Shown here: positions 46,165 through 64,000 of the stretch, in pieces
How the letters are laid out: each line of letters begins with the position of its first letter
Numbering within the stretch: the first letter of the stretch is position 1
Assembly (NCBI RefSeq): GCF_014201415.1
Contig: NZ_JACHEH010000008.1
Coordinates: 1 to 64,000, forward strand
Reading direction: 5' to 3'
Origin: Chelatococcus composti
GTDB taxonomy: Bacteria; Pseudomonadota; Alphaproteobacteria; Rhizobiales; Beijerinckiaceae
DNA: 64,000 nucleotides
Program-made: the position numbers and the translations under genes
The notes under the pieces: model-generated
Told to the model about the DNA's origin: nothing
Database searches by the model: none
What the model saw: only the letters and a program-made list of their open reading frames with translations

Positions 46165-46173
46165 GGAGGCCCT

Positions 46174-47325: not shown

Positions 47326-47330
47326 CTGCT

Positions 47331-48407
47331 TCAGCTTTCGGTCGTCGCCGGCAGCACCCAGCCGTCGTTCACGACGATGTCCACGACGTCGCCGGGACCG
47401 TGGTGGAAAGGCTCCGGCACCGCGAGGTGGACGGTGACGTCGGGCGCCCGCACGAGACTGGCTTCGAGCCGGAAGAAGCCGCCCTGGTAGACGGTGCGCA
47501 CGATGTGGGCAGAAAGGCCCGTCTGGCCCGGCCCGGCGATGGCGAGGTCGCGGGCGCGGAGGCATACCTTGGCGTGGCCGGCTTTCTGCAGCGGCGAGGC
47601 GCGCAGCGACACCTCGAGCCCGTAGATGCGGCCGTGGCAGCGGCCCTCGCTGTCGGCGGCGCCGACCTCGGCGGGCAGCACCATGCCCTCGCCGATGAAG
47701 CGGGCCACGGTCTCGTTCGCCGGCTGGCGGAACAGGTCCGACGGCGTCGCGATCTGCAGCAGGCGGCCGCGGTCCATCACCGCGATGCGGTCGGCAAGCG
47801 CCATGGCCTCCGCCTGGTCGTGGGTGATGTAGATCATCGTCGTCGCCGTGCGCTCGTGGAAGCGGGCGAACTCGTCCTCCATCGCCGCGCGCAGGTGCAC
47901 GTCGAGGTTGGCGAGCGGCTCGTCGAGCAGCACGAGCGAGGGTTCGGTGACGAGGCAGCGCGCGAGCGCGACGCGCTGGCGCTGGCCGCCGGAGAGAAGA
48001 CCCGGCCGGCGCTCGGCGAAGGCCTCGAGCCCCACGAGCGCGAGCGCCTCCTTGACGCGGCGCGTCCGCTCCGGGTCCTTCACCCCCGCCACCTTGAGGC
48101 CGTAGGCGACGTTGTCGAACACGCTCATGTGCGGCCACAGCGCATAGGACTGGAAGACGATGCCGACGCGCCGGTGCTCCGGCGGCACATGGCGGCGCGC
48201 GTCGGACACCACCGTGTCGCCGATGCGGATCTCGCCATCGTCGATCTGGTCGAAGCCGGCGATCTGCCGCAGGAGGGTCGTCTTGCCGCAGCCGGAGGGG
48301 CCGAGCACGGCGAGGAACTCCCCGTCCCGCACCTCCATGGAGACGGCGTCCAGGGCGCGGTAGTTGCCGAAAGTCTTGGAGACCCTGTCGATGGTCAGTC
48401 GCGCCAC
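47331..48407 (-). CDS. ABC transporter ATP-binding protein (FbpC/AfuC type)
   Basis: 358-residue ATPase with Walker A GPSGCGKTT, signature LSGGQRQRVALAR, Walker B LVLLDEP and a C-terminal TOBE domain (about 280-355). The group serves ferric iron, sugar-phosphate, phosphonate and polyamine importers. It starts with GTG at 48407 (AGGGAGT upstream), overlapping the permease gene by 13 bases. Confidence 0.9.
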   Translation of the reverse strand: MARLTIDRVSKTFGNYRALDAVSMEVRDGEFLAVLGPSGCGKTTLLRQIAGFDQIDDGEIRIGDTVVSDARRHVPPEHRRVGIVFQSYALWPHMSVFDNVAYGLKVAGVKDPERTRRVKEALALVGLEAFAERRPGLLSGGQRQRVALARCLVTEPSLVLLDEPLANLDVHLRAAMEDEFARFHERTATTMIYITHDQAEAMALADRIAVMDRGRLLQIATPSDLFRQPANETVARFIGEGMVLPAEVGAADSEGRCHGRIYGLEVSLRASPLQKAGHAKVCLRARDLAIAGPGQTGLSAHIVRTVYQGGFFRLEASLVRAPDVTVHLAVPEPFHHGPGDVVDIVVNDGWVLPATTES

Positions 48408-50101
48408 GGCAGCACTCCCTGGGGCAGCTTGCGAGCAAAGAGAAGGGTGGCGAGCATCAGCGCCAGCGTGACGATGACCGTCAGCACCGCGAGCGCCGCC
48501 GCATAGGTGGAATCGCCGCCCTGTTCGAAGGAGAAGACGACGACGCCGAGCGTCTCGTTGCCGGACGACCAGAGGAGGGCCGACACCGTGAGCTCGTTGA
48601 AGGCCGTGAGGAAGACGAGAAGCGCGCCCGCCGTCGCCGCCGGGGCAACGAGCGGCAGGATGATGGTGACGAGCCGGCGCAGGAGCCCAGCCCCCGCAAC
48701 CTGGGCCGCCTCTTCGAGCGTCCGGTCGAGCTGGTGGTAGCCGCTGGCGACGGGGCGCAGCCCGAGCACGAGGAAGCGCGCCACGTAGCAGAAGAAGATG
48801 ATCCAGATGGTGTTGTAGAGCGAGACGCCGAACACCGGCAGCGGCTTGAGGAAGATGAGGATGGCCGCGATGGCCAGCACCACGCCCGGCAAGGCATAGG
48901 GCAGCTCGGCGGCGAGGTTGAGCAGCCGCAGCATGCGCGAGCGCCGCCAGACGAGGAAGTAGGCGAGCGGTACCGACACCACGACGATCACGACGGCGGC
49001 AGCAGCCGACAGCCCGAAGCTGTTGGCGAAGGCGCGCCGCGAGGCCGCGTGGTCGAACATCACGTAGGCATAGTTCTCCAGCGTCGCCGACGCGGCGGTC
49101 AGCGGCACGCCGTAGCTCGGCACCAGCGAGGTGGCGACGAGGCCGGCGAGCGGCACCACGAGGATGACGAGCACAAGCGCCCACAGCAGGATCTCGCTCG
49201 GCAGCCGCCAGCCGCGCAGCTCGAAAGGCCTGGCCGCCGTCGATGTCGTGGTGATGCGGAAGTCGCGACGGCGCAGCATCAGGTCCTGCACGACGATGCC
49301 CGCCATGGCAATGACGCCGATGAGCGTCGAGAGGACGGCCACCTCGGAGAGGGCACTCGGCCCGAGCCCCGACAGGCGCTGGTAGATCAGCGTCGGCAGC
49401 ACGAGGTAGTTCGCGGGAATGCCGAGAAAGGCCGGAATGCCGAAGTTGCCGAGGCTCGAGACGAAGCACAGGGCGATGCCGGCGACGAGCGGCGGTGTCA
49501 TCAGCGGCAGGATGATGGTGCGCAGCACCGTGAGCTTGCCGGCACCGGCGGCTAGCCCGGCCTCGATCAGCTCCTTCGGCAGGGCGCGCAGGCCAGCGCG
49601 CAGCGTGAGGAAGACGAGCGGCGCATACTGGATGCCGAGCAGCAGGATGATGCCCTCGGCCGAATAGAGCGGGTTGCGTGTGCCCAGTGGCGGGGCGAGG
49701 CCCAGCGTCTTCAGCAGGGCGCTTGACGGGCCCGTCACCTGCAGCCAGGCGAGCGCCGTGACCTGCGGCGCGATCATCAGCGGCAGCACAAAACAAAACA
49801 CGAAGGCGTTGCGCGCCCGCATGTCGGTGAGGGCGACGAAACAGGCGACGATGCTGCCGATGACGACGGCGAGGACGGTGCCTCCGAAGGTCGTCACCAA
49901 GCTGTTGCGCACCGCCGTCCAGGTGGTCGGATCGGACAGGACCGCGCCGATCACGCCGGAGGAGAGCGCGCCGCCTGGCGCGATGCCCTCGAGGACGAGC
50001 CGTGCAAGCGGCAGGATGGAGAGAACGGCGACGAGGACCACGAGCCCCCACAGGAGCGTAAGATCCCCGCCGCGCATGGCCTTGGCAGCGCTGCCGCTCA
50101 T
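48395..50101 (-). CDS. ABC transporter permease, two fused domains (FbpB/AfuB type)
   Basis: 568-residue permease with two membrane domains, each carrying an EAA-type loop (LIEAGLAAGAGKLTVLRTI; LEEAAQVAGAGLLRRLVTI). This double-length form is typical of AfuB/FbpB/PhnU-like systems. It lies 22 bases after the binding-protein gene. Confidence 0.92.
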   Translation of the reverse strand: MSGSAAKAMRGGDLTLLWGLVVLVAVLSILPLARLVLEGIAPGGALSSGVIGAVLSDPTTWTAVRNSLVTTFGGTVLAVVIGSIVACFVALTDMRARNAFVFCFVLPLMIAPQVTALAWLQVTGPSSALLKTLGLAPPLGTRNPLYSAEGIILLLGIQYAPLVFLTLRAGLRALPKELIEAGLAAGAGKLTVLRTIILPLMTPPLVAGIALCFVSSLGNFGIPAFLGIPANYLVLPTLIYQRLSGLGPSALSEVAVLSTLIGVIAMAGIVVQDLMLRRRDFRITTTSTAARPFELRGWRLPSEILLWALVLVILVVPLAGLVATSLVPSYGVPLTAASATLENYAYVMFDHAASRRAFANSFGLSAAAAVVIVVVSVPLAYFLVWRRSRMLRLLNLAAELPYALPGVVLAIAAILIFLKPLPVFGVSLYNTIWIIFFCYVARFLVLGLRPVASGYHQLDRTLEEAAQVAGAGLLRRLVTIILPLVAPAATAGALLVFLTAFNELTVSALLWSSGNETLGVVVFSFEQGGDSTYAAALAVLTVIVTLALMLATLLFARKLPQGVLPWRD

Positions 50102-50123
50102 GACGTTTCGCTATCCGGCCGGC

Positions 50124-51122
50124 TCAGTTGCCGAACATCTCGGCGAAGCGCTTCTTGTCCGCCTCGGTCGACTCGACGACCTTGGCGATGTTCGTCGCCA
50201 TCAGCTTGATCTCGGTGCCCTCCGGCAGCCAGTCGGGCTTGGCGACGCCGGCCTTGGCGGGCACGTAGCCCATGGAGGCTGCGAGCTTCTGGCCGTCGTC
50301 GGAGAGGATGAAGTCGACGAACGCCTTGGCGGCCGCCTCGTTCTTCGTGGTCTTGAGGATGGCGACCGGCTCGGTCACGGCCGGCACGCCCTCGGCCGGG
50401 AAGACGAAATCGACCGGCGAACCCTTGGCCTTGGCGTTGAGCGCCATGAAGTCAACGAGGACGCCGTAGGCCTTCTCGCCGCTGGCGACGGACTTCAGCA
50501 CCGCGCCGTTGCCGCGCACGGCCACCGCCTCGTTGGCCTTGAGCCCCTCGTAGAACGACCAGCCGAGGTCGGGATGCTCCACCATCGTGCTCAGCATGAT
50601 GGCGGCCGCGCCGGAATAGAGCGGGCTCGGCATGGAGATCTGCCCCTTGTAGGAGGGTTTGGTCAGATCCTTCCAGGACGTGGGCTTCTCGGCCGCGCCA
50701 GTGTTGTAGGCGATGCCGGTCGTGATGAGCTTGGAGCCGAAATAGGTCTTGTCGGCGTCGTAGGTCTCCTTGTCGAAGCCGTCGACCTTCGCCTCGGGAT
50801 AGGGCAGGAGGCGCCCGTCCTTCTTCAGGATCTCCATGCTCGCGGCGTCGGCGATGAACAGGACGTCGGGGCGCGGGTCGCCGGCCGTGAACTCGGCGGC
50901 GAGCTTGCCCATCACCTCCGTCGTGCCGGAGCGGAAGATTTCCACCTCGACGCCCGGATAGGCCTTCTTGAAGGCCTCCGTCGTCATGCTGGCGTCCTTC
51001 TCGGGCTGCGAGGTGTAGAGCACGAGTTTGCCGGACGGGGCCTGGGCAAAGGCAGGCGCCGCGGCGAGGGCCGCGGCGAGCGCGCCGGCGGCGACAAGGG
51101 TACGGCGGGTCAGCGTGTTCAT
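50124..51122 (-). CDS. ABC transporter substrate-binding protein (AfuA/FbpA family)
   Basis: 332-residue periplasmic protein with signal peptide (about 1-27, ending AFAQA). The mature start KLVLYTSQPEKDASMTTEAF and the segment FRSGTTEVMGKL place it in COG1840, which binds ferric iron, hexose phosphates or phosphonates. I do not see the paired tyrosines typical of ferric-binding FbpA. The downstream phosphatase genes favour a phosphorylated ligand. The ATG at 51122 has GGGAGGA upstream. Confidence 0.88.
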   Translation of the reverse strand: MNTLTRRTLVAAGALAAALAAAPAFAQAPSGKLVLYTSQPEKDASMTTEAFKKAYPGVEVEIFRSGTTEVMGKLAAEFTAGDPRPDVLFIADAASMEILKKDGRLLPYPEAKVDGFDKETYDADKTYFGSKLITTGIAYNTGAAEKPTSWKDLTKPSYKGQISMPSPLYSGAAAIMLSTMVEHPDLGWSFYEGLKANEAVAVRGNGAVLKSVASGEKAYGVLVDFMALNAKAKGSPVDFVFPAEGVPAVTEPVAILKTTKNEAAAKAFVDFILSDDGQKLAASMGYVPAKAGVAKPDWLPEGTEIKLMATNIAKVVESTEADKKRFAEMFGN

Positions 51123-51236
51123 CGTTTTCCTCCCACTGTGGGCCAAGGCTGCGCACGATGCGCGGAGCTGGCATACCTATCGTCTGGTGGTTTTGCTTTT
51201 GTGACGATGGATCCTGTGATTTTTCCGACAGTTAGA

Positions 51237-52490
51237 TCAGATTAGCACCTCCGGGCACTCGATGGCTTCCCTGAGGTCGGCCATGAAGCGCGCGGCCGTC
51301 ACACCGTCTACGATTCGATGGTCCGACGACAGGGAGAAGGTGGCCATCGGCCTCAGCACGATCTGTCCGTCACGGCCGACCGGCGTGTCCACGGTGCGCC
51401 CGACGGCGAGGATGGCGCTTTCAGGCTGGTTGATGATGGCGGTGAAGCTGTCGACCCCGTACATGCCGAGGTTCGAGATCGTGAAGGTGCCGCCGCGCAT
51501 GTCCGCCGGCTGGATGGTGCGGTTTGCCACTGCCTCGCGCAGGCGGCCGAACTCGCGCGTCAGTTCCGCGAGGTTCTTGCCCTCCGCGCCGCGCAGCACG
51601 GGCACCACCAGGTCGCCGTCCCGTTCCATGGCGATGCCGATGTTGACGGTGGGGTGCAGCCGGGCGGCATCCCCCTCGACACTGGCGTTGAGCATGGGGT
51701 GGCGTGGCAGGATGCCGGCGACGACGCGCGCAAGGAGCACCGTCAGGCTCGGCCTGACACCCACCGCCTTTTCGATGCGTGGGCCGACGCGCTTCAGAAG
51801 CGCTTGCAGGGCGCCCATGTCGATCTGCGCCATCATGTAGAAATGCGGCGCAACCCGCATGCTCTCCGAAAGCCGGCTCGCGATGATGCGCCGCACGGGA
51901 CCGAAGGGCACGAGCTCCCCTTCGGTGGGCGCCTCGGCGGGCGCCCGCGCCGCGACGGGCGCCGGCTCGGCAGGCCGCTTCGCCAGATGGGCGAGCACGT
52001 CCTCCTCCGTGATGCGCCCGCGCGGGCCAGAGCCCGTCACCTCGGCGATGGCGATGCCGTGGAGGCGGGCCGTGCGGCGGGCAAGCGGCGTCGCGCGCAC
52101 GCCGCTGTCGAGGGCCCGCGCAGGATGGCCGTTCGAGGCCGGCGCGGTGGAGGCGGCGGCCTCGCCGGAGGGGGAGGCTGGCGGTTGCTGCGCCTGCGGG
52201 GCGGCTGCCGTCTCCGCCGCTGGCGGCGGCGGCGTGTCGCTGGCGTCCTCGCCCTCCAGAAAGATCCACGCCACGGGCGTGCCCACCGCGATTGGCTCGC
52301 CGGAGGCGGGCACGAGGTTGCGGATGATGCCGCTCGCCGGTGCCTCCACCTCCATGACGGCCTTGTTGGTGCCGATCTCGAAGAGGATGTCGCCCTGCTT
52401 GACGAAATCGCCCTCGGAGACCTTCCAGGCCTCGATGGAGCCGGTCTCCATGTCCATGTCGACCTTGGGGAGGATGACCTCGACGGGCAT
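51237..52490 (-). CDS. Dihydrolipoamide acyltransferase E2 of an acetoin-type dehydrogenase complex
   Basis: 417-residue E2: lipoyl domain at 1-80 (lipoyl Lys43 in IGTNKAVMEVEA, with Asn instead of the usual Asp before it), a Pro/Ala-rich linker, a peripheral subunit-binding domain (about 130-168, ATPLARRTARLHGI) and the catalytic domain ending with DHRIVDG (His near 391). It carries acyl groups from E1 to CoA. The start shares a base with the E1beta stop. No E3 gene is adjacent; the housekeeping lipoamide dehydrogenase may serve. Confidence 0.9.
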   Translation of the reverse strand: MPVEVILPKVDMDMETGSIEAWKVSEGDFVKQGDILFEIGTNKAVMEVEAPASGIIRNLVPASGEPIAVGTPVAWIFLEGEDASDTPPPPAAETAAAPQAQQPPASPSGEAAASTAPASNGHPARALDSGVRATPLARRTARLHGIAIAEVTGSGPRGRITEEDVLAHLAKRPAEPAPVAARAPAEAPTEGELVPFGPVRRIIASRLSESMRVAPHFYMMAQIDMGALQALLKRVGPRIEKAVGVRPSLTVLLARVVAGILPRHPMLNASVEGDAARLHPTVNIGIAMERDGDLVVPVLRGAEGKNLAELTREFGRLREAVANRTIQPADMRGGTFTISNLGMYGVDSFTAIINQPESAILAVGRTVDTPVGRDGQIVLRPMATFSLSSDHRIVDGVTAARFMADLREAIECPEVLI

Positions 52491-53512
52491 CAGGCTTCTC
52501 CCCTGGCAAGTCGGCGCGCCGCCTCGAGGATATTCTCCTCCTGCGGCACGGCGGCCTTCTCCAGCACCGGGTTGTAGGGCAGGGGCACCTCTGCGCCGCC
52601 GAGGCGGATGATGGGCGCGTCGAGAAAGTCGAAGACATCGCTCTCGGCGATCATGGCCGAGATCTCGGCGCCGATGCCCATGGTCTTCACGCCCTCGTAC
52701 ACCACCAAGAGGCGGTGCGTCTTGCGCACGCTGGCGGCGATCGTGTCGAAATCAATGGGGCGCAGGCTGCGCAGGTCGATGACCTCGGCGTCGATGCCCT
52801 CCTGCGCCAGCTTCTCGGCGGCCGCCACGGCGCGCACAGCCATGATCGACGAGCCGACGATGGTAAGGTCACGGCCCTCGCGACGCACGGCCGCCTTGCC
52901 GATCGGCACGCGATAGTCGCCCTCGGGCACATGGCCCTTCGTCTTGTAGAGCAGCTTGTGCTCGAAGATGAGGACGGGATTGGGGTCGTCGATGGCCGCC
53001 AGCAGCATGCCCTTGGCGTCGTGCGGGGTCGACGGCTGGATGACCTTGAGCCCCGGCACGTGGGCGAACCAGGCCTCAAGGCTCTGGCTGTGCTGGGCCG
53101 CTGCGCCGGTGCCGGAGCCGCCGGGCAGGCGCACAACCATCGGCACCTTGGCCTTGCCGCCGAACATGAAGCGGATCTTGGCCGCCTGGTTGACGATCTG
53201 CTCCATGGCGAGCGTGACGAAATCCGAGAACTGGATCTCCAGCACCGGCCTCATGCCGGTGATCGCCGCGCCGACGGCCGCCCCCGCGATGCCGAGCTCA
53301 CTGATGGGCGTGTCGATAACGCGGTCGGGGCCGAAGCGGTGCACGAGATCGCCGGAGACGCCGAAGGCGCCGCCGTAGACGCCGACATCCTCGCCGAAGA
53401 GGAAGACGCGCTCGTCCGCCTCCATGGCGATGGCCAGCGCCTCGCGGATGGCCTCGGCATAGGTGAGTTCGCGCACCGCGCTCTCCACGGCGGCCTCAGT
53501 CAGCGTAGACAT
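52490..53512 (-). CDS. TPP-dependent dehydrogenase E1 beta (AcoB/PdhB-like)
   Basis: 340-residue E1 beta subunit with the pyrimidine-binding transketolase domain ([17 protein letters not shown], with the catalytic Glu) and the C-terminal transketolase domain. It lacks the N-terminal lipoyl domain often present in alphaproteobacterial PdhB, consistent with an acetoin- or specialised 2-oxoacid-type complex. It overlaps E1 alpha by 17 bases. Confidence 0.92.
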
Positions 53513-54512
53513 CGCGGGTCAGGTCCTTCGGGTCCGGATCAGGGCTCGCCTTGGCGAATTCGAGGGCGGCGTCGATCTCCGCCTGCGCCGCCTCCTCGAT
53601 GGTCATCAGCTCCTCGGGCGTGAAGCGCCCGTGTGCCACCAGCTCGGCCTCGAGGCGGCGGATGGGGCAGCGGTTGCGCCACTCCTCGATCTCCTCCTTG
53701 GTGCGGTAGAGGTTGCGGTCGCTCTTGGAGTGGCCGCGCAGGCGGTAGGTCTTGCACTCGATGAGCGTCGGCCCGCCGCCCGAGCGCGCCCGCTCGGCCG
53801 CCTCGCGGGCCACGGCCGCCACGGCCGGCAGGTCGTTGCCGTCCACGATGATGCCGGGCATGGCATAGGCCACGGCACGATCGGCGACATTCGGCACCGC
53901 CATGGCGCGGCTGACGTCCATCGACATGCCGTACTTGTTGTTCTCGCAGACGAAGAGGATCGGCAGCTTCCAGATCGAGGCCATGTTGAGCGCCTCGTGG
54001 AAGGCGCCTTCGTTGGACGCCCCGTCGCCGAAGAAGACGACGGCCACCCGGTCGAGCTTCTGCGCCTTGATGCTCATGCCGACGCCGACGGCGATCGGCA
54101 GGCCGCCGCCGACGATGCCGTTGGCCCCGAGGTTGCCGCCCTCGACGTCGGCGATGTGCATGGAGCCGCCGCGGCCCTTGCAGTAGCCGTTCTCCTTGCC
54201 GAAGAACTCGGCGAACATGCGCGCCGGGTCCGCCCCCTTGGCGATGCAGTGGCCGTGACCGCGGTGGGTGGAGAGGATGTAGTCCTCCGCCTTGAGCGGC
54301 AGCGTCGAGCCGACGGCGCTCGCCTCCTGACCGATGGACAGGTGCATGGTGCCGTGGATGAGGCCGCGCATGTAGCTCGCCTCGGCCGCCTCCTCGAACT
54401 TGCGGATGAGGTGCATCTTGCGCAGCACGCCCCGCATCGTCTCGTCGTCGATGGCCGCCAGCTCCGGCCGCTGGTTGGGTCGCTGTGCAGTGGTGTCGGT
54501 GTCAGCTTTCAT
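53496..54512 (-). CDS. TPP-dependent dehydrogenase E1 alpha, acetoin dehydrogenase type (AcoA-like)
   Basis: 338-residue E1 alpha subunit. The TPP motif begins GDGASNEG and ends near ENNKYG. The active-site segment [13 protein letters not shown] matches acetoin dehydrogenase AcoA; housekeeping pyruvate E1 alpha has a different sequence there. Acetoin dehydrogenases cleave CH3-CO-CH(OH)-R between the carbonyl and carbinol, giving acetyl-CoA and an aldehyde. It lies 87 bases after the COG4091 gene on the same strand. Confidence 0.92.
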
Positions 54513-54599: not shown

Positions 54600-55943
54600 T
54601 CACTTGCCCTCGAGCCGGGCGATGTAAGCGTCGTGCTCCTTGCGCACCTTCGCAATCATCAGGCTCTCGTCGGGGGCGCAGTTCTCGTAGGTGAGGTACT
54701 CGCCCTTGCGGATGGGCCGGGTAACCTTCGCCCCCTGGGCGAGGCCGATCGGCAGCGCCTTGAGCGCGACCGCGTCGGGCCGGGACAGAGCGATGCCGCG
54801 GTAGCAGTATTCACCGATGGCATCGAGCGTCTCACCCACGGCGAGGTCGCGCTTGGCGACGGCGCCGACTTCCGCGCTCGGCACCGGCAGCGGCCGCATC
54901 AGGCTGCGGCCGTAGATGACGGCATTCGCCGCCGAGAGCGGCACCTCGATGCTGGTTAGGTGATAGGGCCGGTAGAAGGTGTAGTAGGGGCCCTCGCCGA
55001 GGTGCAGGTCCTGCATGCGCTCGCGGATGCGGGGGTGGCGCATCTCAGCGACGACGAAGACGCCCGGTGCAACGCCGCGCGCCACCGAGAAGTCGACGAC
55101 GCCACGGCGCGACAGCAGGCCGCCGTCCTCCTTCGGGCACAGCACCTTGTGCAGCTCCTCGCGCGGCGCGGCCGGCCCGTGCATGCCGGGCACGTCCGGC
55201 ACGAGCCCGGCGGCGTTGGCGATGGCGACCATCTCCACCATCGTCTTCGAGCCGTCGACGAACTCCACCAGCATGCGCGGGTTCATGTTGCGCCGGCGCG
55301 CCTCTTCCTCGTAGGCGTCGGGCGTGGCGTCGACCTTCAGGGGGTTGTTCTTGCCCTTGCCGGCGGCGACGACGGGATAGCCGAGGCTGCGCACAAAGTT
55401 GATGAGCTCCATCGTGCAGCAGGGCTCGTCGCCGGCGGCCAGTGTGTAGACGACGCCCTTCTCGTCGGCCTTCGACGCCAGGTAGCTGCCGATGGTGATG
55501 TCCGCCTCGACATTCATCATCACGATGTGCTTGCCGGCGGCGATGGTGGCGAGCGCAACCATGGCCCCGACATTAGGGTTGCCCGTGGCGTCGATGACAA
55601 CGTCAACGCCCTCGGCCGCGCAGACGGCCTCGTAGGAGGGGGCAACCGCGAGCCGGCCCTCGCTGATGGTCGCCGCAACCTCGCCAGGGCTTGTCGCCGT
55701 CTTCGGCTGCCGCACGCTGCCGCCGGCGATGGCGCAGGCTTCGCTCACCCGCTCCACGATGGCATCGGCCGCGGCGACGATCTCGATGCCGGGCATCTGG
55801 GTGGTTTGTACGACGATGTCGGTGCCCATCTGGCCGACGCCGATGAGGCCGACGCGGACCGGACGGCCCTCGCGCTCGCGGCGCAGGAGGGCCTCGATGA
55901 GGGAATCGTCACTGGCGCGCCCTGCGGGCGTCCTGTTGTCCAT
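54600..55943 (-). CDS. COG4091-type oxidoreductase with SAF domain (DRL-like)
   Basis: 447-residue protein: N-terminal Rossmann domain (VRVGLIGVGQMGTDIV, about 30-170) related to homoserine dehydrogenase, a middle domain with MMNVEADITIG and AAGDEPCCTMELINFV, and a C-terminal SAF domain (about 365-430, VAKRDLAVGETLDAIG). This is the predicted homoserine dehydrogenase family COG4091. From memory, the Brucella DXP-reductoisomerase-like enzyme DRL belongs to this broad family; many members have other unknown roles. The ATG at 55943 follows GAGGGGAG. It leads the leftward unit with acoA-like genes and faces the SorC regulator. Confidence 0.82.
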   Translation of the reverse strand: MDNRTPAGRASDDSLIEALLRREREGRPVRVGLIGVGQMGTDIVVQTTQMPGIEIVAAADAIVERVSEACAIAGGSVRQPKTATSPGEVAATISEGRLAVAPSYEAVCAAEGVDVVIDATGNPNVGAMVALATIAAGKHIVMMNVEADITIGSYLASKADEKGVVYTLAAGDEPCCTMELINFVRSLGYPVVAAGKGKNNPLKVDATPDAYEEEARRRNMNPRMLVEFVDGSKTMVEMVAIANAAGLVPDVPGMHGPAAPREELHKVLCPKEDGGLLSRRGVVDFSVARGVAPGVFVVAEMRHPRIRERMQDLHLGEGPYYTFYRPYHLTSIEVPLSAANAVIYGRSLMRPLPVPSAEVGAVAKRDLAVGETLDAIGEYCYRGIALSRPDAVALKALPIGLAQGAKVTRPIRKGEYLTYENCAPDESLMIAKVRKEHDAYIARLEGK

Positions 55944-55994
55944 GGGCTGCTCCCCTCTGCGTGGCGGCTTGCAAGGTGCCGCCGTTCGCACATT

Positions 55995-56038
55995 TGTACG
56001 TTGCAACGAACATAAATTCATGAACGATTGGACGTCAA
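55995..56038 (-). promoter_or_regulatory. Promoter and SorC-type operator for the leftward unit
   Basis: On the minus strand TTGACG (56033-56038), a 17-bp spacer and TTATGT (56010-56015) form a good sigma-70 promoter. The palindrome TGTACGTTG/CAACGAACA (55995-56012, one mismatched pair) overlaps the -10 box and start point. The octamer ACAAATGT (minus strand, 55990-55997) also occurs in the operator of the rightward unit. Confidence 0.65.
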
Positions 56039-56127
56039 GGCGCATCGGACGGGGCGCCGCGCGCTTGCCTCCGGCCACGCTTTCCGTACTGTCGCGGCCG
56101 ATTGGATGATTGGGAAAATCGTTGCCG

Positions 56128-57090
56128 ATGCGTGCCGAGAAGCTTGCCCGCCACGAGATCCAGCCCTCGTCCGACCTGAAGGTCAGGGCGGCGTGGCTCT
56201 ACTACGTAGAGGGCCTCACGCAGGAACAGATTGCCCAGACGATGAACATCGGTCGGATCAAGGTCGTGCGGCTGCTGGCGGCTGCGCGCGAGGAGGGTCT
56301 GGTCCGCATCCGCATCGAAGCCAAGGGCGCGGAGCAGATCGCGCTGGAGCGCCGCCTCGTGCGCGAGCTCGGCCTCGGGGAGGCGATCGTGGTGCCGGCG
56401 GCTGCCGACGAGGCGGACACCGCGATGCTCGTCGGCCAGGCGGCTGGCAGCTACCTTAACGACCAGGTGCGCGATGGCATGTCCATCGGCATTGGCTGGG
56501 GCGCCACGCTGCACATGAGCCTCAAGGCGCTCGGCAACGGACGCTACGAGAACCTCTCCGTCATCTCCCTGATGGGCGGGCTCACGCACTCGCGCACCAT
56601 CAACCCCTCGGCCGTGGCGCGCCGGGTCGCCGACGCCTTCGGCGCCGAGTGCTACCAGCTCACGGCGCCGATCTTCGTGGCCAACGAGACGGTGCGGAAC
56701 CTGCTCTGGGAGGAGCCGGGCCTCAAGGAGCTGCTGGACAGGGCGCGCCGCGTCGACATCGCCCTCGTCAGCGTCGGCAACGTCAGCGAGGAGGCGACGC
56801 TCTTCCGCCAGGGGCTGCTTCCGCGCTCGCAGCTCGAGAGTCTGCGCGAGGCCGGCGCGGTCGGCGACGTGCTGTGCCATTTCCTCGATGCCGAGGGCAA
56901 TGTTGTCGACCATCCCTTCAACCGCCGCATCATGGCGATCGACCTCGAGGACATCCGGCGCATTCCCAAGGTCGTCGTGGCCGCCGGAGGCTACAGCAAG
57001 GTACGCGCCATCCGCGCCGCGCTGAAGGCGACCGCCGCGAGCGTTCTCGTCACTGACGAGCCGGCGGCGCTCGGCCTGCTCGAGGGCTGA
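56128..57090 (+). CDS. SorC-family sugar-binding transcriptional regulator
   Basis: 320-residue regulator: N-terminal helix-turn-helix (LKVRAAWLYYVEGLTQEQIA, TMNIGRIKVVRLLAAAREEG) and a C-terminal sugar-phosphate-binding domain (IGIGWGATLHMSLKAL, VGNVSEEATLFRQG, GGYSKVRAIRAAL). SorC/DeoR-type proteins such as SorC and EryD control polyol genes in response to phosphorylated intermediates. I prefer the ATG at 56128; an in-frame TTG at 56110 is also possible. It sits between the two units whose promoters carry related palindromes. Confidence 0.9.
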   Translation: MRAEKLARHEIQPSSDLKVRAAWLYYVEGLTQEQIAQTMNIGRIKVVRLLAAAREEGLVRIRIEAKGAEQIALERRLVRELGLGEAIVVPAAADEADTAMLVGQAAGSYLNDQVRDGMSIGIGWGATLHMSLKALGNGRYENLSVISLMGGLTHSRTINPSAVARRVADAFGAECYQLTAPIFVANETVRNLLWEEPGLKELLDRARRVDIALVSVGNVSEEATLFRQGLLPRSQLESLREAGAVGDVLCHFLDAEGNVVDHPFNRRIMAIDLEDIRRIPKVVVAAGGYSKVRAIRAALKATAASVLVTDEPAALGLLEG

Positions 57091-57233
57091 CGGACAGGCG
57101 TTCGAGTGCCGCGACGCACCGGCCGGGCGTCATCGCCACCGCTCCGCGATCCCGCGAATACCGCAAACCGCACCGCTTGCGGGCGACCGGTCGCCCGCGT
57201 GAAAGCGGCCGTGTTGTCGCGGTGTCAAACACA

Positions 57234-57268
57234 TTGACGGCAACGGAAACAAATGTACATTCATTTGT
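57234..57268 (+). promoter_or_regulatory. Promoter and operator of the gutM-PTS operon
   Basis: TTGACG (57234-57239) with a 16-bp spacer to TACATT (57256-57261) forms the promoter. The palindrome ACAAATG-TACATT-CATTTGT (57249-57268) has perfect 7-bp arms and the -10 box as its centre, so binding of a repressor excludes RNA polymerase. It shares ACAAATGT with the operator before the leftward unit. Confidence 0.75.
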
Positions 57269-57308
57269 GCAAGACACGAACAAACGTGCGGCATCAGGGG
57301 AGGACGGC

Positions 57309-57746
57309 ATGAACTTCTGGCAAAGTGCGCTGCTCGTCCTGGGCGTCCTGTGGGCGCTCCAGAGCGTCGGCACCTATCTGCAGATGCGCCACTACCGCCG
57401 CGTGCTCGGCGACATCACCACGCGCTGGGCCGACGGCTATGTCGGCGTCGGCGTTGCCAAGGCGAACTTCGGCCGCGGTGTCATCGCCATCCTTGTCGTC
57501 GGTGCGGACGAGCGGGTGCGCGAGGCCCTCGTCATGGAAGGGCGCAGCGTCTTCGCCAAGTTCGTGTCCCTGCCCGAGCTGGCCGGCGTGCCGGCCGCCG
57601 AGCTGCGTGCGGGCGCGCGCGCCAGCTCAGCCAACCGGACCGCGGCCTTCCGCCAGGCGCTGGAGCAGATCGACCGGCTGCGTGCCGGCGATGAGGAGGC
57701 GCCCGCGTCCGCCCGCATGGCGGGGCCGACCCCGGCCGTTGCCTGA
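57309..57746 (+). CDS. gutM: GutM-type glucitol operon activator
   Basis: 145-residue protein with one N-terminal transmembrane helix (WQSALLVLGVLWALQSVGTY) and the GutM/SrlM segment MRHYRRVLGDITTRWADGYVG. In Escherichia coli, GutM helps activate the glucitol operon; the mechanism is unclear. It has a GGGGAGGA site and is the first gene after the PTS promoter. The membrane helix suggests it may work through the permease. Confidence 0.88.
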   Translation: MNFWQSALLVLGVLWALQSVGTYLQMRHYRRVLGDITTRWADGYVGVGVAKANFGRGVIAILVVGADERVREALVMEGRSVFAKFVSLPELAGVPAAELRAGARASSANRTAAFRQALEQIDRLRAGDEEAPASARMAGPTPAVA

Positions 57747-57758
57747 CGTGCCGGGAAA

Positions 57759-57782
57759 CCCTCGGCGGTGACGCTGCGAGGG
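57759..57782 (+). other. Intercistronic stem-loop between gutM and the PTS IIC gene
   Basis: CCCTCG/CGAGGG arms with an inner GCG/CGC pair (24 bases in all) lie between gutM and the IIC gene, with no T-tract. It may mark an mRNA processing site or adjust relative expression of the regulator and permease. Confidence 0.35.
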
Positions 57783-57821
57783 AACGATGAAGCAAGGCAA
57801 AATGTCTGGGGAGGGTGAACG

Positions 57822-58370
57822 ATGTTGGAATGGCTGGCTGGAGGCGCCGAGGCTTTCATCGGCGTGTTTAACGAGGGCGGCAAGGTTTTCGTCGCCTTCG
57901 TCACGGGTATCCTGCCGACGCTGATCGTGCTCCTGACGGCGGTCTACGCCATCATCGAGCTGGTGGGCGAGCAGCGCGTGCACAAGGTGGCGCGCTATGC
58001 GGCGGGCAACGCTTTCACGCGCTACACCGTCCTGCCGGTACTGGCCGTCTTCTTCCTCACCAACCCGATGGCATACACCTTCGGCGTCTTCCTTGAGGAA
58101 AAGCACAAGCCGGCCTTCTACGACTCGGCGGTGTCCTTCGTGCACCCCATCACCGGCCTCTTCCCGCATGCCAATCCGGGCGAGCTCTTCGTCTGGCTCG
58201 GGGTGGCGGCCGGCATCACCAAGCTCGTCGAGAACGGCACTGCCCCCTTCTCGCTCGCCAAGCTCGCGCTCTTCTACTTCGTGGTCGGCCTCGTGGTGAT
58301 CCTGCTCAAGGGCATCGTCACCGAGTGGATCACGAAGCTTATCGCGCGCCGTGAAGGCGTGACGCTCTGA
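57822..58370 (+). CDS. srlA: PTS glucitol/sorbitol-type IIC subunit
   Basis: 182-residue membrane protein with the GutA/SrlA pattern (AGGAEAFIGVFNEGGKVFV; FFLTNPMAYTFGVFLEEKHK; FPHANPGELFVWLGVAAGI). Forms the sugar channel with the IIC2 domain of the next protein. Good GGGGAGGG site. The substrate of this family is a linear polyol in known cases but may differ here. Confidence 0.93.
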   Translation: MLEWLAGGAEAFIGVFNEGGKVFVAFVTGILPTLIVLLTAVYAIIELVGEQRVHKVARYAAGNAFTRYTVLPVLAVFFLTNPMAYTFGVFLEEKHKPAFYDSAVSFVHPITGLFPHANPGELFVWLGVAAGITKLVENGTAPFSLAKLALFYFVVGLVVILLKGIVTEWITKLIARREGVTL

Positions 58371-58407
58371 GCCGCCGTGCTCGGAACGCGAAGGAAGGAG
58401 CACGGAC

Positions 58408-59412
58408 ATGGCGAACAGGCAGTTCAAGGCCGTCAGGATCGAGCGTGGCGCGCGCGGCTGGGGTGGCCCCCTCGTCATCCAGCCGACGGAGGAGCGTGAC
58501 AAGGTGGTCGCCGTCACCGGTGGCGGCATCCCGGAGGTGGCCCGGCGCATCGCGGAGTTGACCGGCGCGACAGCGGTCGACGGCTTCACCTCGCCGCCGC
58601 TCGAGAGCGAGATCGCCGTCGTTGTGGTCGATTGCGGCGGCACCGCGCGCTGCGGCGTCTATCCGCGCAAGCGCATCCCCACGGTCAATCTCACACCCGT
58701 CGGGCAGTCGGGCCCGCTCGCCCAGTTCATTACGGAGGATATCTACGTCTCCGGCGTGACGGTGGACACGATCCACCCCGCCGACGGCCGCGAGGCGCCG
58801 GCAGCTGCCGGCGCGCAGCCGGCCGGTGCCAACCCCTTTGCCGCGCCGGCCGGGGCCGCCATGCCGGCGGAGGATGCCGGGGGCGTCGTCGGCTTCATCA
58901 CCGGCATCGGCCGCTCCATGGGCCACGTGGTCGGCGTGCTGTTCAACAGCGGGCGGCGCTCGATCGACCAGGTCATCCGCAACGTCCTGCCGTTCATGGC
59001 CTTCGTGACGATGCTCATCGGCGTCATCAACGCCACGGGCATCGGCAACTGGCTGGCGCACCTGCTCGAACCGCTGGCGGGCAACATCTTTGGGCTACTG
59101 GTGCTCTCAGCCATCTGCGGCCTGCCGTTCCTGTCGCCGGTGCTCGGGCCAGGCGCAGTCATCGCCCAGGTCATCGGCGCGGCCATCATCGGCCCGGCCA
59201 TCGGCAACGGCACCATTCCGCCCGCCATGGCCCTGCCGGCCCTGTTTGCCTACAACACGCAGGTCGGCTGCGACTTCGTGCCCGTGGGCCTCGCGCTCGG
59301 CGAGGCGAAGCCCGAAACCATCAAGATCGGCGTGCCGGCGGTGCTGCTCAGCCGCCAGATCATGGGGCCTGTGTCCGTGGTCATCGCCTGGCTCGCCAGC
59401 TTCGCGCTCTGA
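58408..59412 (+). CDS. srlE: PTS glucitol/sorbitol-type IIB-IIC2 subunit
   Basis: 334-residue protein: an N-terminal IIB domain (about 1-120) with the phosphorylation-site motif DCGGTARCG (Cys76, Cys82), an Ala/Pro linker (about 130-155) and a membrane IIC2 domain (about 165-334; NVLPFMAFVTMLIGVINATG). It receives phosphate from IIA and passes it to the incoming polyol. AAGGAG precedes the start. Confidence 0.94.
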   Translation: MANRQFKAVRIERGARGWGGPLVIQPTEERDKVVAVTGGGIPEVARRIAELTGATAVDGFTSPPLESEIAVVVVDCGGTARCGVYPRKRIPTVNLTPVGQSGPLAQFITEDIYVSGVTVDTIHPADGREAPAAAGAQPAGANPFAAPAGAAMPAEDAGGVVGFITGIGRSMGHVVGVLFNSGRRSIDQVIRNVLPFMAFVTMLIGVINATGIGNWLAHLLEPLAGNIFGLLVLSAICGLPFLSPVLGPGAVIAQVIGAAIIGPAIGNGTIPPAMALPALFAYNTQVGCDFVPVGLALGEAKPETIKIGVPAVLLSRQIMGPVSVVIAWLASFAL

Positions 59413-59427
59413 GGGAGGAAGACCGCC

Positions 59428-59811
59428 ATGACGCTGCTCTATCGCACGGTCATCACGACGATCGGGCCCGACGTGGCGGATCTTGCCGAAGGCGGCGTCG
59501 TCATCCTCTTTGCGGAGGGGGCGCCGCCGGAACTTGCGGAAGTCGCCGTGTTGCACCGGGCGGAAGGCGAGGTTGGCGCCGCCCCCCGCCCGGGCGACGT
59601 GCTGCGCATTGGCGGGCGGGAGTTTTCCATCACCGCCATCGGCGAGACGGCGTGGAAGAAGGTGGCCGATATGGGCCACGTCGTCTTCAACTTCTCCGGC
59701 GTCGTGAGCCCTGACCGGCCGGGCGAGATCTGCCTTGAGGCGACAGAGGGGGCGGACGTGCTGCCGCTGCTCGTGCCGGGAGCCGCCATCGAGATCCTGG
59801 CGAGGGCCTGA
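59428..59811 (+). CDS. srlB: PTS glucitol/sorbitol-type IIA subunit
   Basis: 127-residue soluble phosphocarrier with the GutB/SrlB pattern; the likely phosphorylated histidine is His43 in AVLHRAEGE. It takes phosphate from HPr (fused to Enzyme I in the next gene) and gives it to IIB. GGGAGGA site before the ATG. Confidence 0.94.
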   Translation: MTLLYRTVITTIGPDVADLAEGGVVILFAEGAPPELAEVAVLHRAEGEVGAAPRPGDVLRIGGREFSITAIGETAWKKVADMGHVVFNFSGVVSPDRPGEICLEATEGADVLPLLVPGAAIEILARA

Positions 59812-59814
59812 GCA

Positions 59815-61803
59815 ATGGCAGGGCAGGCGGGTATGGAGCAGGTGATGGAAGCCGAGCGGACGGCGATTGTGCAGCTGGAGGAGGGACTGCATGCGCGCCC
59901 GGCGGCGCGTGTCGTCCAGTTCGCCAAGGGATTCGTCTCGGACATCGAAATCGTCAAGGGCGGGCGCTCGGCCAATGCCAAGAGCACGGTCAAGCTCATG
60001 CTGCTGGCCGTGAAGGAGGGCGACGAGATTGTCATCCGGGCCCGTGGCGAGGACGCCGAGGCAGCCGTCGAAGGGCTCGCCGCCATCGTCACCGGCGAGG
60101 CGGATGCGCCGGCCACCCCCGCAGCGCGCGAGGAGGCGGCTGGTGCCGCTCCCACCGCGCTCCCGGCGCAGGAGCCGGCTGCGCCGGGCGAGCTCGTCGG
60201 CGTCGCTGCCAGCGAGGGCGTGGCCGTCGGCCCGGCCTTCGTCTACCTGCCGCACGAGCCACAGCCCCGGCGCACGCACATCGCCGCTGGAGAGGTCGAG
60301 GCCGAGACGCTGCGCTTTCGCCGTGCCGTCGAGGCCGTCTGCGCCATGCTTGAACGCCGCAGCGACGATGACGATGCGGCGGCCGCAACTGCCGCCGACA
60401 TCATGGCGGCGCTGAGGGACGTGGCGCAGGATCCCGAGTTCCTCGAGGCCGTCGAGGCGCGCATCGCGGCGCAGGAGGACCCTGTCGCCGCCGTGCTCGC
60501 CGTCGGCAGGGAGCTTGCCGAGCGTTTCACCCATATCGACGACGCCTATTTCCGTGCCCGCGCCGAAGACGTGCGCGGCGTCGCCCGCCAGGTGGCGAAC
60601 GTGCTGCTCGGACGCGATGGGAGCGATCTTGCGGCGCTTGCCGAGCCCGCGATCCTCGTAGCAGGGCATCTGAGCGCGCTCGATCTTGCCCGCCTGCCGT
60701 TGCGCCTGCTCAGGGGCCTTGTCACCAGCGAGGGCGGGCCGACCTCGCACATCGCCATCCTCGCACGCTCCTTCGGCTTTCCGGCCGTCGTCGGCGTCAA
60801 GGCCGAGGAGGCAGTGCTGCGGGCGGCGAGGACGGTTGCCGTCGACGGCGGGCGGGGCGTTGCCGTCGTCAATCCCGATCCCGCCGTCGCGGCGGCCTAT
60901 GCGGCGCGGCTGGAGAAGGCGGAAGAGGAGCGGCGTGCGCTCGCGGCCTTCACCCATGTGGTGCCGAAAACGCGCGATGGTCGCGTCATCGAGGTGGCGG
61001 CCAATCTCGGCTCGGAGGCGGAGATCGACGGCGCCCTCGGTTTCGGCGCCATGGGCGTCGGGCTCTTCCGCACCGAGTTCCTCTTCATGCACGGCAGGAC
61101 GCTGCCGAGCGAGGACGAGCAGTTCCGCATCTATGCGCGGGTGGTGAAGGCGTTCCGCCCGCACGCGGTCGTCTTCCGCACGCTCGACATCGGCGGCGAC
61201 AAGGCCCTGCCCGGCATCGCGCCCGAGCGGGAGGAAAACCCCTTCCTCGGCTGGCGCGGCATCCGCATGTGCCTGGACCGGCCGCACCTGCTGAAGCCGC
61301 AGCTGCGGGCCATCCTGCGCGCCGCCGCCCTGGGCACGGCGCGCGTGATGTTCCCGATGGTCACAGACATCGCGGAGGTGAGGGCAGCCAGGGCGATCGT
61401 CGACGCCTGCCGGCAGGAGCTTGCGGAGGAAGGGCAGGAAACCGGGCCGCTCGAGGTCGGCATCATGGTGGAGACCCCGGCAGCGGCCCTGTGTGCCGCC
61501 ACCCTCGCCCGCGAAGTGGACTTCTTTTCCATCGGCACAAACGACCTGACGCAGTACACGATGGCCGCGGACCGCACCAACGCCCGTCTCGCGCATCTCA
61601 ACCGGGCCGACCATCCCGCCGTGCTCGCCATGATCGAGATGACCTGCCGGGCCGCGCGGGAGGCCGGCATCAGGGTCGGCGTGTGTGGCGAGGCCGCCGG
61701 CGAGCCGGCCATGATCCCGCGGCTCCTCGGCTGGGGCGTGAGCGAACTCTCCATGAGCCCGTCGCTCATTCCGCGGGCGAAGAAAATCGTCAGCGAGTGT
61801 TGA
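59815..61803 (+). CDS. HPr-Enzyme I fusion protein of the PTS
   Basis: 662-residue phosphotransfer protein. Residues 15-95 are an HPr domain with phospho-His26 in EGLHARPAARV and the GGRSANAKS loop; an Ala/Pro linker follows (about 97-125); the rest is Enzyme I with phospho-His312 in GGPTSHIAILAR, the PEP-site segments GVGLFRTEFLFM and GIMVETPAA, and the Cys in VCGEAAGEP. There is no GAF domain, so it is not the nitrogen-related PtsP. It starts three bases after the IIA gene and completes a self-sufficient sugar PTS. An alternative ATG lies at residue 7 or 11. Confidence 0.95.
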   Translation: MAGQAGMEQVMEAERTAIVQLEEGLHARPAARVVQFAKGFVSDIEIVKGGRSANAKSTVKLMLLAVKEGDEIVIRARGEDAEAAVEGLAAIVTGEADAPATPAAREEAAGAAPTALPAQEPAAPGELVGVAASEGVAVGPAFVYLPHEPQPRRTHIAAGEVEAETLRFRRAVEAVCAMLERRSDDDDAAAATAADIMAALRDVAQDPEFLEAVEARIAAQEDPVAAVLAVGRELAERFTHIDDAYFRARAEDVRGVARQVANVLLGRDGSDLAALAEPAILVAGHLSALDLARLPLRLLRGLVTSEGGPTSHIAILARSFGFPAVVGVKAEEAVLRAARTVAVDGGRGVAVVNPDPAVAAAYAARLEKAEEERRALAAFTHVVPKTRDGRVIEVAANLGSEAEIDGALGFGAMGVGLFRTEFLFMHGRTLPSEDEQFRIYARVVKAFRPHAVVFRTLDIGGDKALPGIAPEREENPFLGWRGIRMCLDRPHLLKPQLRAILRAAALGTARVMFPMVTDIAEVRAARAIVDACRQELAEEGQETGPLEVGIMVETPAAALCAATLAREVDFFSIGTNDLTQYTMAADRTNARLAHLNRADHPAVLAMIEMTCRAAREAGIRVGVCGEAAGEPAMIPRLLGWGVSELSMSPSLIPRAKKIVSEC

Positions 61804-61901: not shown

Positions 61902-62189
61902 TCAGTCGCGCAGAGCGGCCTCGATCTTGTCGAGCACCTCGTCCTTGCCGATGCCGGTGAGGAAGGCGAGCGTCGTGATCACCGGTTTGTCGAGATCCGG
62001 CGGTACCGGCGTCGTCGAGACGACGAGGTCGACGTCGTGGATGAGGCTCGGCACCTCGGTCGCCTTGCACTGGCGGATGTCGACGGTGATGCCGCGCTCG
62101 CGCATCTCCTCCTCGATGGCGTTGGCGACGACCGTCGATGTCGCGACGGCCGTGCCGCAGGCGACGAGGACGACTTTGTTCCTTGGCAT
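61902..62189 (-). CDS. PTS galactitol-type IIB subunit
   Basis: 95-residue phosphocarrier with the GatB pattern; the phosphorylated Cys11 is in VACGTAVATST. VVSTTPVP and AFLTGIGKDE complete the family fold. It converges on the HPr-Enzyme I gene. GGGAGGAAC precedes the start. The polyol specificity is unknown. Confidence 0.93.
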   Translation of the reverse strand: MPRNKVVLVACGTAVATSTVVANAIEEEMRERGITVDIRQCKATEVPSLIHDVDLVVSTTPVPPDLDKPVITTLAFLTGIGKDEVLDKIEAALRD

Positions 62190-62269
62190 CTTGTTCCTCC
62201 CGTGTCCTTTCGGCGATGCTCGCCGCCGTGAGCGGCGAAGGCAAGGCGGACCCTTCCGCCGCCCGCGCG

Positions 62270-62734
62270 TCAGGCGCGCAGCACCGCAAAGATGTCATCC
62301 GGTGATGTCGCGGCGGCGAGGGCTGCGAGCGCCCCCGGCCGCTGGATGAGTTCCGCCACCTCGCGCAGCATGTCGATCTGCGCGTTCTTGTCGGCGAGGG
62401 CCAGCATCATCACGACGCCGACGGGGATCTGCTCGTCGGGGTCGTCCATGCTGCCGAAGCTGACGGGCCGCACCAGCGTGGCGAGCGCGAGCGACGGCGT
62501 CACCACGTGCTCCGGATCGGTGTGCGGCACGGCGATATTGAGGTCGCCGCCGAGCGGCAGGCCCGTCGGCATGCTCGCCTCGCGCGCGAGGACGGCATCG
62601 GCAAAGCTCTCCCGCACGCGGCCGAGGGCAGCGAGGCGCCCGGCAAGAAGGCTGATGACCTCGCGGCCGGACGTGGCCTCGACCCCGAGGCAGATCGCCT
62701 CGGGGTCGAGATGCTGCAAGATGCTGTCGTGCAT
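62270..62734 (-). CDS. PTS IIA subunit (galactitol/fructose superfamily)
   Basis: 154-residue IIA protein with phospho-His71 in IAVPHTDPEHV and the segment LGRVRESFADAVLAREA. Members of this superfamily include GatA and mannitol and nitrogen-type IIA; the neighbours point to the galactitol type. 80 bases separate it from the IIB gene; nothing notable was seen there. Confidence 0.92.
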   Translation of the reverse strand: MHDSILQHLDPEAICLGVEATSGREVISLLAGRLAALGRVRESFADAVLAREASMPTGLPLGGDLNIAVPHTDPEHVVTPSLALATLVRPVSFGSMDDPDEQIPVGVVMMLALADKNAQIDMLREVAELIQRPGALAALAAATSPDDIFAVLRA

Positions 62735-62743
62735 GGGGGCTCG

Positions 62744-64000
62744 TCACTCCGCAGGCGAGGCGGCGGCGCCCTTCGCCTGGGCGGGGGCGGGATCGTCGCT
62801 GCCGGCGAGCCGCTCCCAGGCAGCCGGCCGACGGTGGAAGCCGATGAAGCACAGCGCGATCACCGCGAGCACGGCCAGAAGGCCGACAATGCCGAGCCCA
62901 GATACCGCCTCGACCAACACGTAGGACACCCACAGGAAGCCGTCGACGATGCTCGTGATCTGCGTCGTGCCCTCGGGCAGCGCGAAGCCGGCCGACACCG
63001 CGGCGCTGGTGAAGAGCGGCGCGAGCGCCGTCGCGACATAGAAGCCGACTGCGAGCGTCACCGTGCCGATGATGACCATGCGCAGCACGTTGCCGCCAAC
63101 GACCGGCGCGGCCATGGCGACCAGGAAGGGGATGACTGCGAGATCGGCGAAGAGGATGACGCGGTTGCCGGGCAGGATGATCGACAGGACGATGGCGATC
63201 GGCACCAGGATGAGCGCGCTCGAGATGGCCGCCGGATGGCCGATGAGGATGGCCGAATCGAGCCCGACGAGAATCTCCCGGTCGCCGGCCCGCTTCTGGA
63301 CGAAGCTGCGCGCCGCCTCGGAGACAGGAATGAGCCCCTCCATCAGGATCTTGACCATGCGCGGCAGCAGGAACATGACCGCCGCGAGGTTCATGCCCGT
63401 CTTGAGCACCTTGCTCACCACCGTGGCGGCATCGCCCGCGTCGTAGTAGCCGATGGCGCCGAGCACGAGGCCGATGCCGAGACCGAGAATGACAGGCTCG
63501 CCGAAGACGCCGAGCTTCTTCTGGATGACGTCAGTGTCGAGGTTGATGGCGTTGAGGCCGGGGATGCGGTCGATCACCCAGTTGACAGCAATCGCGATGG
63601 GCAGGATCTGCCCCGAGGCGAGGTGCGGCACCGAGACACCCGGAATCCCATAGAATCGCTGCACAGCTTTGGCCGTCCAGTCGGCAAAGAGCAGGGCGAG
63701 CGCCGCCATCAGCGCGGCTGCGACGAGACCGTAGAAGAGGCTGTCGGTGGCCGCGACGACGAGCGAGCCGATGAAGGCGAAATGCCAGAAGTTCCACACG
63801 TCGACATTGAGCGTGCGCGTCATGCGCGTCATCAGCAGCAGGACATTGACGGCGATGCCGATGGGGATCACCCACAGGCCGACCGAGGAGCCGAAGGCGA
63901 TGGCCGCGGCCGATGGCCAGCCGACGTCCACCACGTCGCGCGTGATGCCGGTGTTCTTCACGATCGCCTGTGCCACGTCGCTGAGGCTCGTGAACATGAG
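62744..64000 (-). CDS. PTS galactitol-type IIC subunit (5' end outside the window)
   Basis: Membrane permease of the Gat family, at least 418 residues in view. It enters the window mid-protein: the ATG at 63995-63997 is preceded by an in-frame Leu codon and aligns with an internal Met of GatC (LM...VVDVGWP), so about 50-60 N-terminal residues lie beyond 64000. Conserved segments are VGWPSAAAIAFGSSVGLWVI, MTRTLNVDVWNFWHFAF and ILPGNRVILFADLAVIPF. An Ala/Pro-rich tail ends the protein. Confidence 0.92.
   Translation of the reverse strand, partial: LMFTSLSDVAQAIVKNTGITRDVVDVGWPSAAAIAFGSSVGLWVIPIGIAVNVLLLMTRMTRTLNVDVWNFWHFAFIGSLVVAATDSLFYGLVAAALMAALALLFADWTAKAVQRFYGIPGVSVPHLASGQILPIAIAVNWVIDRIPGLNAINLDTDVIQKKLGVFGEPVILGLGIGLVLGAIGYYDAGDAATVVSKVLKTGMNLAAVMFLLPRMVKILMEGLIPVSEAARSFVQKRAGDREILVGLDSAILIGHPAAISSALILVPIAIVLSIILPGNRVILFADLAVIPFLVAMAAPVVGGNVLRMVIIGTVTLAVGFYVATALAPLFTSAAVSAGFALPEGTTQITSIVDGFLWVSYVLVEAVSGLGIVGLLAVLAVIALCFIGFHRRPAAWERLAGSDDPAPAQAKGAAASPAE

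Follow-up and report, generated by a model that had tools for sequence, protein, structure and literature searches.

The SorC-family regulator encoded near the end of the analysed stretch of Chelatococcus DNA (genome G000; the window, 64 kb in full) very probably binds two operators, one on either side of its own gene, where it would block RNA polymerase until a phosphorylated intermediate releases it, so that uptake and breakdown genes may be induced jointly. The sorC gene sits between a leftward unit encoding DRL, E1a, E1b, E2 and an ABC transporter and a rightward unit comprising gutM, srlA, srlE, srlB and an enzyme I gene (Table 1). An earlier note on this DNA had proposed that the phosphotransferase system (PTS) and the COG4091-aco genes belong to one regulon in spite of their location on opposite strands. 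This proposal is supported by a sequence motif that was learned from other genera and that picks out both flanks of sorC in the window.

Near-identical SorC proteins occur in C. sambhunathii and C. caeni. The protein matches PF04198 (Sugar-bind) with 234 bits over residues 70–320, and its N-terminal helix-turn-helix (HTH) stretch aligns with DeoR, which places it in the SorC family; with 219 bits it does not reach the cut-off of 420 bits of the NCBIfam DeoR equivalog (NF053881), and hence it is not DeoR itself. The COG4091 protein is assigned to the DRL enzymes by its catalytic domain (PF21135, 230 bits) and a SAF domain (PF08666, 35 bits). The domain of canonical DXP reductoisomerase (DXR) is also present in the same genome. 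The genes downstream of E2, encoding the ABC transporter, a metallo-beta-lactamase-fold protein and SurE, probably form one transcription unit with DRL-E1-E2, and ABC substrate-binding and permease genes still adjoin E2 in related genera. No terminator-like sites were found in the region 55900–57400. On the other side, galactitol-type PTS genes (IIB, IIA, IIC; window 61902–63997, L065:3997–5425) adjoin the glucitol PTS unit, and a second SorC-family gene (G000:C8:64505–65431) lies next to them, directly beyond the window.

Table 1. Genes, promoters and predicted operator elements at the sorC locus (window positions).
Feature	Position	Strand	Remarks
ABC transporter (PhnS2/PhnU2/PhnT2-like), metallo-beta-lactamase-fold protein, SurE	45415–51146	-	Downstream of DRL-E1-E2
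E1 alpha, E1 beta, E2 of thiamine-dependent dehydrogenase complex	51237–54512	-	Pfam and NCBIfam matches
DRL / DXR-II-type oxidoreductase (COG4091)	54600–55943	-	PF21135 DRL_cat, 230 bits; 55% identity to 3upl
Left operator element 1, GTACAAATGTGC leftward	55988–55999	-	13.4 bits; contains octamer ACAAATGT; invariant in two congeners
Left operator element 2, GAATTTATGTTC leftward	56008–56019	-	14.95 bits, best in window; overlaps -10; invariant in two congeners
Leftward promoter	56009–56038	-	-35 TTGACG 56038–56033, -10 TATGTT 56014–56009, spacer 18 bp; consensus scan
SorC-family regulator	56128–57090	+	ATG 56128, TTG 56110 possible; Pfam Sugar-bind, 234 bits; best solved relatives DeoR 8r7y, LsrR
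Rightward promoter	57234–57261	+	-35 TTGACG 57234–57239, -10 TACATT 57256–57261, spacer 16 bp; consensus scan
Right operator element 1, AAACAAATGTAC	57247–57258	+	14.5 bits, second best in window; contains ACAAATGT; invariant in congeners
Right operator weak middle element, ATTCATTTGTGC	57259–57270	+	4.1 bits; 19 bp before right element 2
Right operator element 2, GAACAAACGTGC	57278–57289	+	10.2 bits, fourth best in window; invariant in congeners
gutM, srlA, srlE, srlB, HPr-enzyme I fusion (glucitol-type PTS)	57309–61803	+	Pfam and NCBIfam matches

A consensus scan of positions 55900–57400 returned two sigma-70-like matches, compared with 0.1 expected from shuffles. These are the leftward and the rightward promoter of Table 1, and the -35 box TTGACG that the earlier note had read at both of them is thereby borne out. 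The rightward -10 box reads TACACT in the congeners.

The earlier note had also placed an octamer, in the orientation of transcription, and a palindrome covering the -10 box at each promoter, and both claims hold in part. The octamer ACAAATGT has exactly two copies in 64 kb, at 57249–57256 (+) and 55990–55997 (-), where about 0.21 would be expected from the dinucleotide content; its placement differs, however, as the right copy lies just upstream of the -10 box and the left copy just downstream. The right palindrome (57249–57268, ACAAATG-N6-CATTTGT) is real and is kept in two congeners; palindromes of the same make-up number 23 in the window. The left one (55995–56012) matches in 8 of 9 pairs, a standard that 29 window positions reach, and it covers four of the six bases of the leftward -10 box. 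Both congeners alter it (CAACG to CAATG, with 7 of 9 pairs left), whereas the flanking 12-bp elements are invariant. As an operator it was therefore rejected, being common by chance, altered in congeners, and located astride the spacer between the paired elements. A perfect 20-bp palindrome, GCGGGCGACCGGTCGCCCGC, at 57179–57198, about 90 bp after sorC, was set aside as well; it has no T-run and is not preserved in the congener alignment. The predicted operators are thus corrected to 55988–56019 (left) and 57247–57289 (right), and the putative unit of recognition is a pair of 12-bp elements instead of two palindromes.

This unit emerged from a motif search in which Chelatococcus was left out. 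The training set consisted of 16 DRL upstream regions from other genera with an orthologous SorC (60–63% identical), either adjacent to the locus (L099–L112) or on another contig of the genome (L048, L049). A simple expectation-maximization (EM) procedure was run with four width and symmetry settings and 60 starts each, keeping the best likelihood, and yielded a symmetric 12-bp near-palindrome, GAACATATGTTC. All four settings place their top window sites at the sorC locus. With the symmetric 12-bp weight matrix (PWM), the strong elements of Table 1, two in each flank of sorC, are the four top-scoring distinct sites of the window, and a fifth site follows at 8.9 bits. When the columns of the matrix were permuted, 2 of 1000 matrices put all top four sites in both flanks and 826 put none there; base composition contributes to the result but does not account for it. 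A single element is not specific on a genome-wide scale, as GNACAWATGTNC with at most one mismatch gives 38 strand matches versus 34 for the reversed control; its sole exact match in the genome is the left site at 55988–55999.

The arrangement in pairs is recurrent. Of 39 upstream regions, many of which come from close relatives, 24 have a second element 20 bp from the best one and 5 have it at 19 bp; the range of 12–27 bp holds two other cases, and smaller groups occur at 28 bp (6) and 33 bp (3). A spacing of 53 bp, seen in 10 cases, is due to a third element that the closely related group carries upstream of its promoter. Such an element, GAACATCTGTGC, 53 bp upstream of the best one and before the -35 box, occurs in several loci of the 70%-DRL group (L007 and L010, upstream of DRL). 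A similar, weaker pair (7.1 and 9.6 bits, 19 bp apart) lies in the spacer between IIC and the second sorC gene. Like pairs, 20 bp apart, also precede other genes of the SorC or E1 type in loci that are more distant (L037:5217–5248, L038:11376–11407), which may suggest that the paired 12-bp operator is general for this SorC subgroup.

Conservation points in the same direction. Neither left element differs in the two congeners, and the right block of 43 bp carries a single change, which falls within the -10 box and leaves the strong elements intact; much of the DNA next to the operators differs. Among 30 DRL loci, the motif (at least 8.5 bits) precedes DRL in 20 of the 22 genomes that have a SorC relative (E up to 1e-80) and in 2 of the 8 that have none (Fisher p 0.001, uncorrected for relatedness, with a cut-off picked after the scores had been seen and with some of the counted loci also among those that trained the motif). 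The PTS-linked loci L052–L056 carry elements at both the DRL and the gutM promoters; those at gutM form 20-bp pairs in L053 and L056 and are single or weaker in the rest. In L040 (Rubrobacteraceae) and L041 (an uncultured actinobacterium), gutM, srlA, srlE, srlB, DRL, sorC, E1a and E1b share a strand in this order, and a 19-bp pair precedes gutM. In L042 (DRL-sorC-E1a-E1b-E2) the motif was not found in the available stretch, which does not include the gutM end. The 70%-DRL group has no PTS genes within the available flanks, and the DRL operator is still present. L043–L049 keep ABC substrate-binding and permease genes after DRL-E1-E2 and show no glucitol-type PTS in the available flanks; the ABC system may offer another way of uptake, with a phosphorylated compound as a possible substrate.

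Based on this dataset, we hypothesize that a SorC tetramer (a dimer of dimers) would contact two 12-bp near-palindromes in each operator, by analogy with DeoR and CggR, the elements being separated by about two helical turns at the left operator and three at the right one. At the left operator the protein would sit over the promoter of the DRL-E1-E2-ABC genes, and at the right one over that of the gutM-srlAEB-EI genes. On the left, the elements span the -10 box and the region where transcription presumably starts; on the right, they lie before the -10 box and just after the presumed start. These positions appear compatible with steric repression. Bound SorC would block RNA polymerase, and its release by a phosphorylated pathway intermediate would induce the uptake and breakdown genes on the two strands together. 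Promoters, elements, spacing, conservation and gene linkage are read directly from the DNA; it is from these that we infer binding, repression rather than activation, and an inducer.

It is improbable that a different regulator is the main binder at one or both sites, for instance the second SorC-family protein, or that the two SorC proteins cross-talk. The two proteins are 39% identical, and in view of the pair upstream of the second gene their specificities may overlap; yet the motif was learned beside orthologues of the first SorC and follows their presence at DRL promoters. More specific to the right site is the possibility that SorC controls the DRL unit, while the right operator is a weak or decaying copy and the PTS is controlled otherwise, for instance by GutM or a global regulator. 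The right pair is spaced by an unusual 31 bp instead of the 19–20 bp commonly seen, the partner at 19 bp scores weakly, several PTS-linked relatives have a single or weak element at gutM, and the DRL operator of the 70%-DRL group persists with no PTS genes in the available flanks. These points count against control of both units by SorC; on the other hand, the strong right elements are invariant in the congeners amid diverged DNA, and pairs exist at gutM in L053, L056, L040 and L041, so a decaying right site seems quite unlikely. It is highly implausible that the two promoters, which lie in AT-rich spacers within a GC-rich genome and have short words in common, resemble each other by mere chance: AT-rich motifs do tend to score in intergenic DNA, as the permutations show, and the left palindrome is of a common kind, but the motif comes from other genera, the pairing is fixed at 19–20 bp, and the elements do not vary in congeners.

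If SorC controls both units, this shared regulation would indicate, independently of mere gene neighbourhood, that the DXR-II-type enzyme, the thiamine-dependent dehydrogenase and the glucitol-type PTS belong to a common pathway. We tentatively propose, as a possibility somewhat short of even, that this pathway breaks down 2-C-methylerythritol or a similar branched polyol. The PTS would deliver 2-C-methylerythritol 4-phosphate (MEP), DRL working backwards would convert it to 1-deoxyxylulose 5-phosphate (DXP), and the acetoin-dehydrogenase-like complex would split DXP into acetyl-CoA and glyceraldehyde 3-phosphate; one of the phosphates would be the signal sensed by SorC. A mutant pyruvate dehydrogenase E1 can make DXP in E. 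coli (PMC3424233), which is a precedent for E1-type chemistry on this compound. DXR-II is found both in bacteria that have canonical DXR and in bacteria that lack it (PMC3847144; the word 'catabolic' is absent from its main text). A reversed MEP route is compatible with the components of the regulon and, if true, would explain why bacteria that bear DXR also keep DXR-II. In the open literature, with subscription papers mostly outside the coverage, we found neither a described regulon of such kind nor a bacterial catabolic pathway for 2-C-methylerythritol. The operator as such is of an ordinary SorC/DeoR type, and its value lies in tying DXR-II to a PTS. If the regulon is real, the catabolic role becomes testable, and the paired 12-bp motif could be used for finding members in other genomes.

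Published structures display SorC-family tetramers on two half-operators (PMC11229326), a pair to which the two 12-bp elements seen in the sequence of each Chelatococcus promoter may be compared. The best solved relative of the regulator is DeoR of Bacillus subtilis (8r7y, 159 bits), with 23 of 50 identical residues in the HTH stretch. The DeoR operator of dra-nupC-pdp, its sequence taken from the same paper, likewise combines two 12-bp halves with the pattern GAACA...TGTTC, to which the present motif assigns 11.9 and 17.9 bits. The DeoR halves are 22 bp apart, however, compared with 20 bp (left) and 31 bp (right, strong pair) from centre to centre in Chelatococcus, where there are two operators, one on each side of the regulator gene. 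The lysine of the DeoR VVQLKGG stretch, which we take to be its effector-binding lysine, is Met in Chelatococcus SorC, which is no more than a hint at a different mode of effector binding.

The DRL protein resembles Brucella DRL/DXR-II (3upl, 3upy) with 55% identity. Residues G121, T229, H250, R320 and V351 have been discussed as separating DXR-II from the DLO1 and DLO2 families; in one pairwise alignment the first four are the same, whereas position 351 is Ser in Chelatococcus instead of Val. In a further difference from Brucella DXR-II, the Chelatococcus gene shares a putatively regulated unit with genes for a dehydrogenase complex and transporters, and canonical DXR is encoded elsewhere in the genome. 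The PTS genes correspond to the GutM, SrlA, SrlE and SrlB families of the gut/srl operon of E. coli, and SrlA and SrlE pass the NCBIfam cut-offs. Unlike the E. coli operon, the Chelatococcus locus encodes a GutM that stays below its NCBIfam cut-off (42 of 148 bits), has no glucitol-phosphate dehydrogenase among the genes examined, and adds an HPr-enzyme I fusion, with a SorC-type regulator and the DRL unit alongside.
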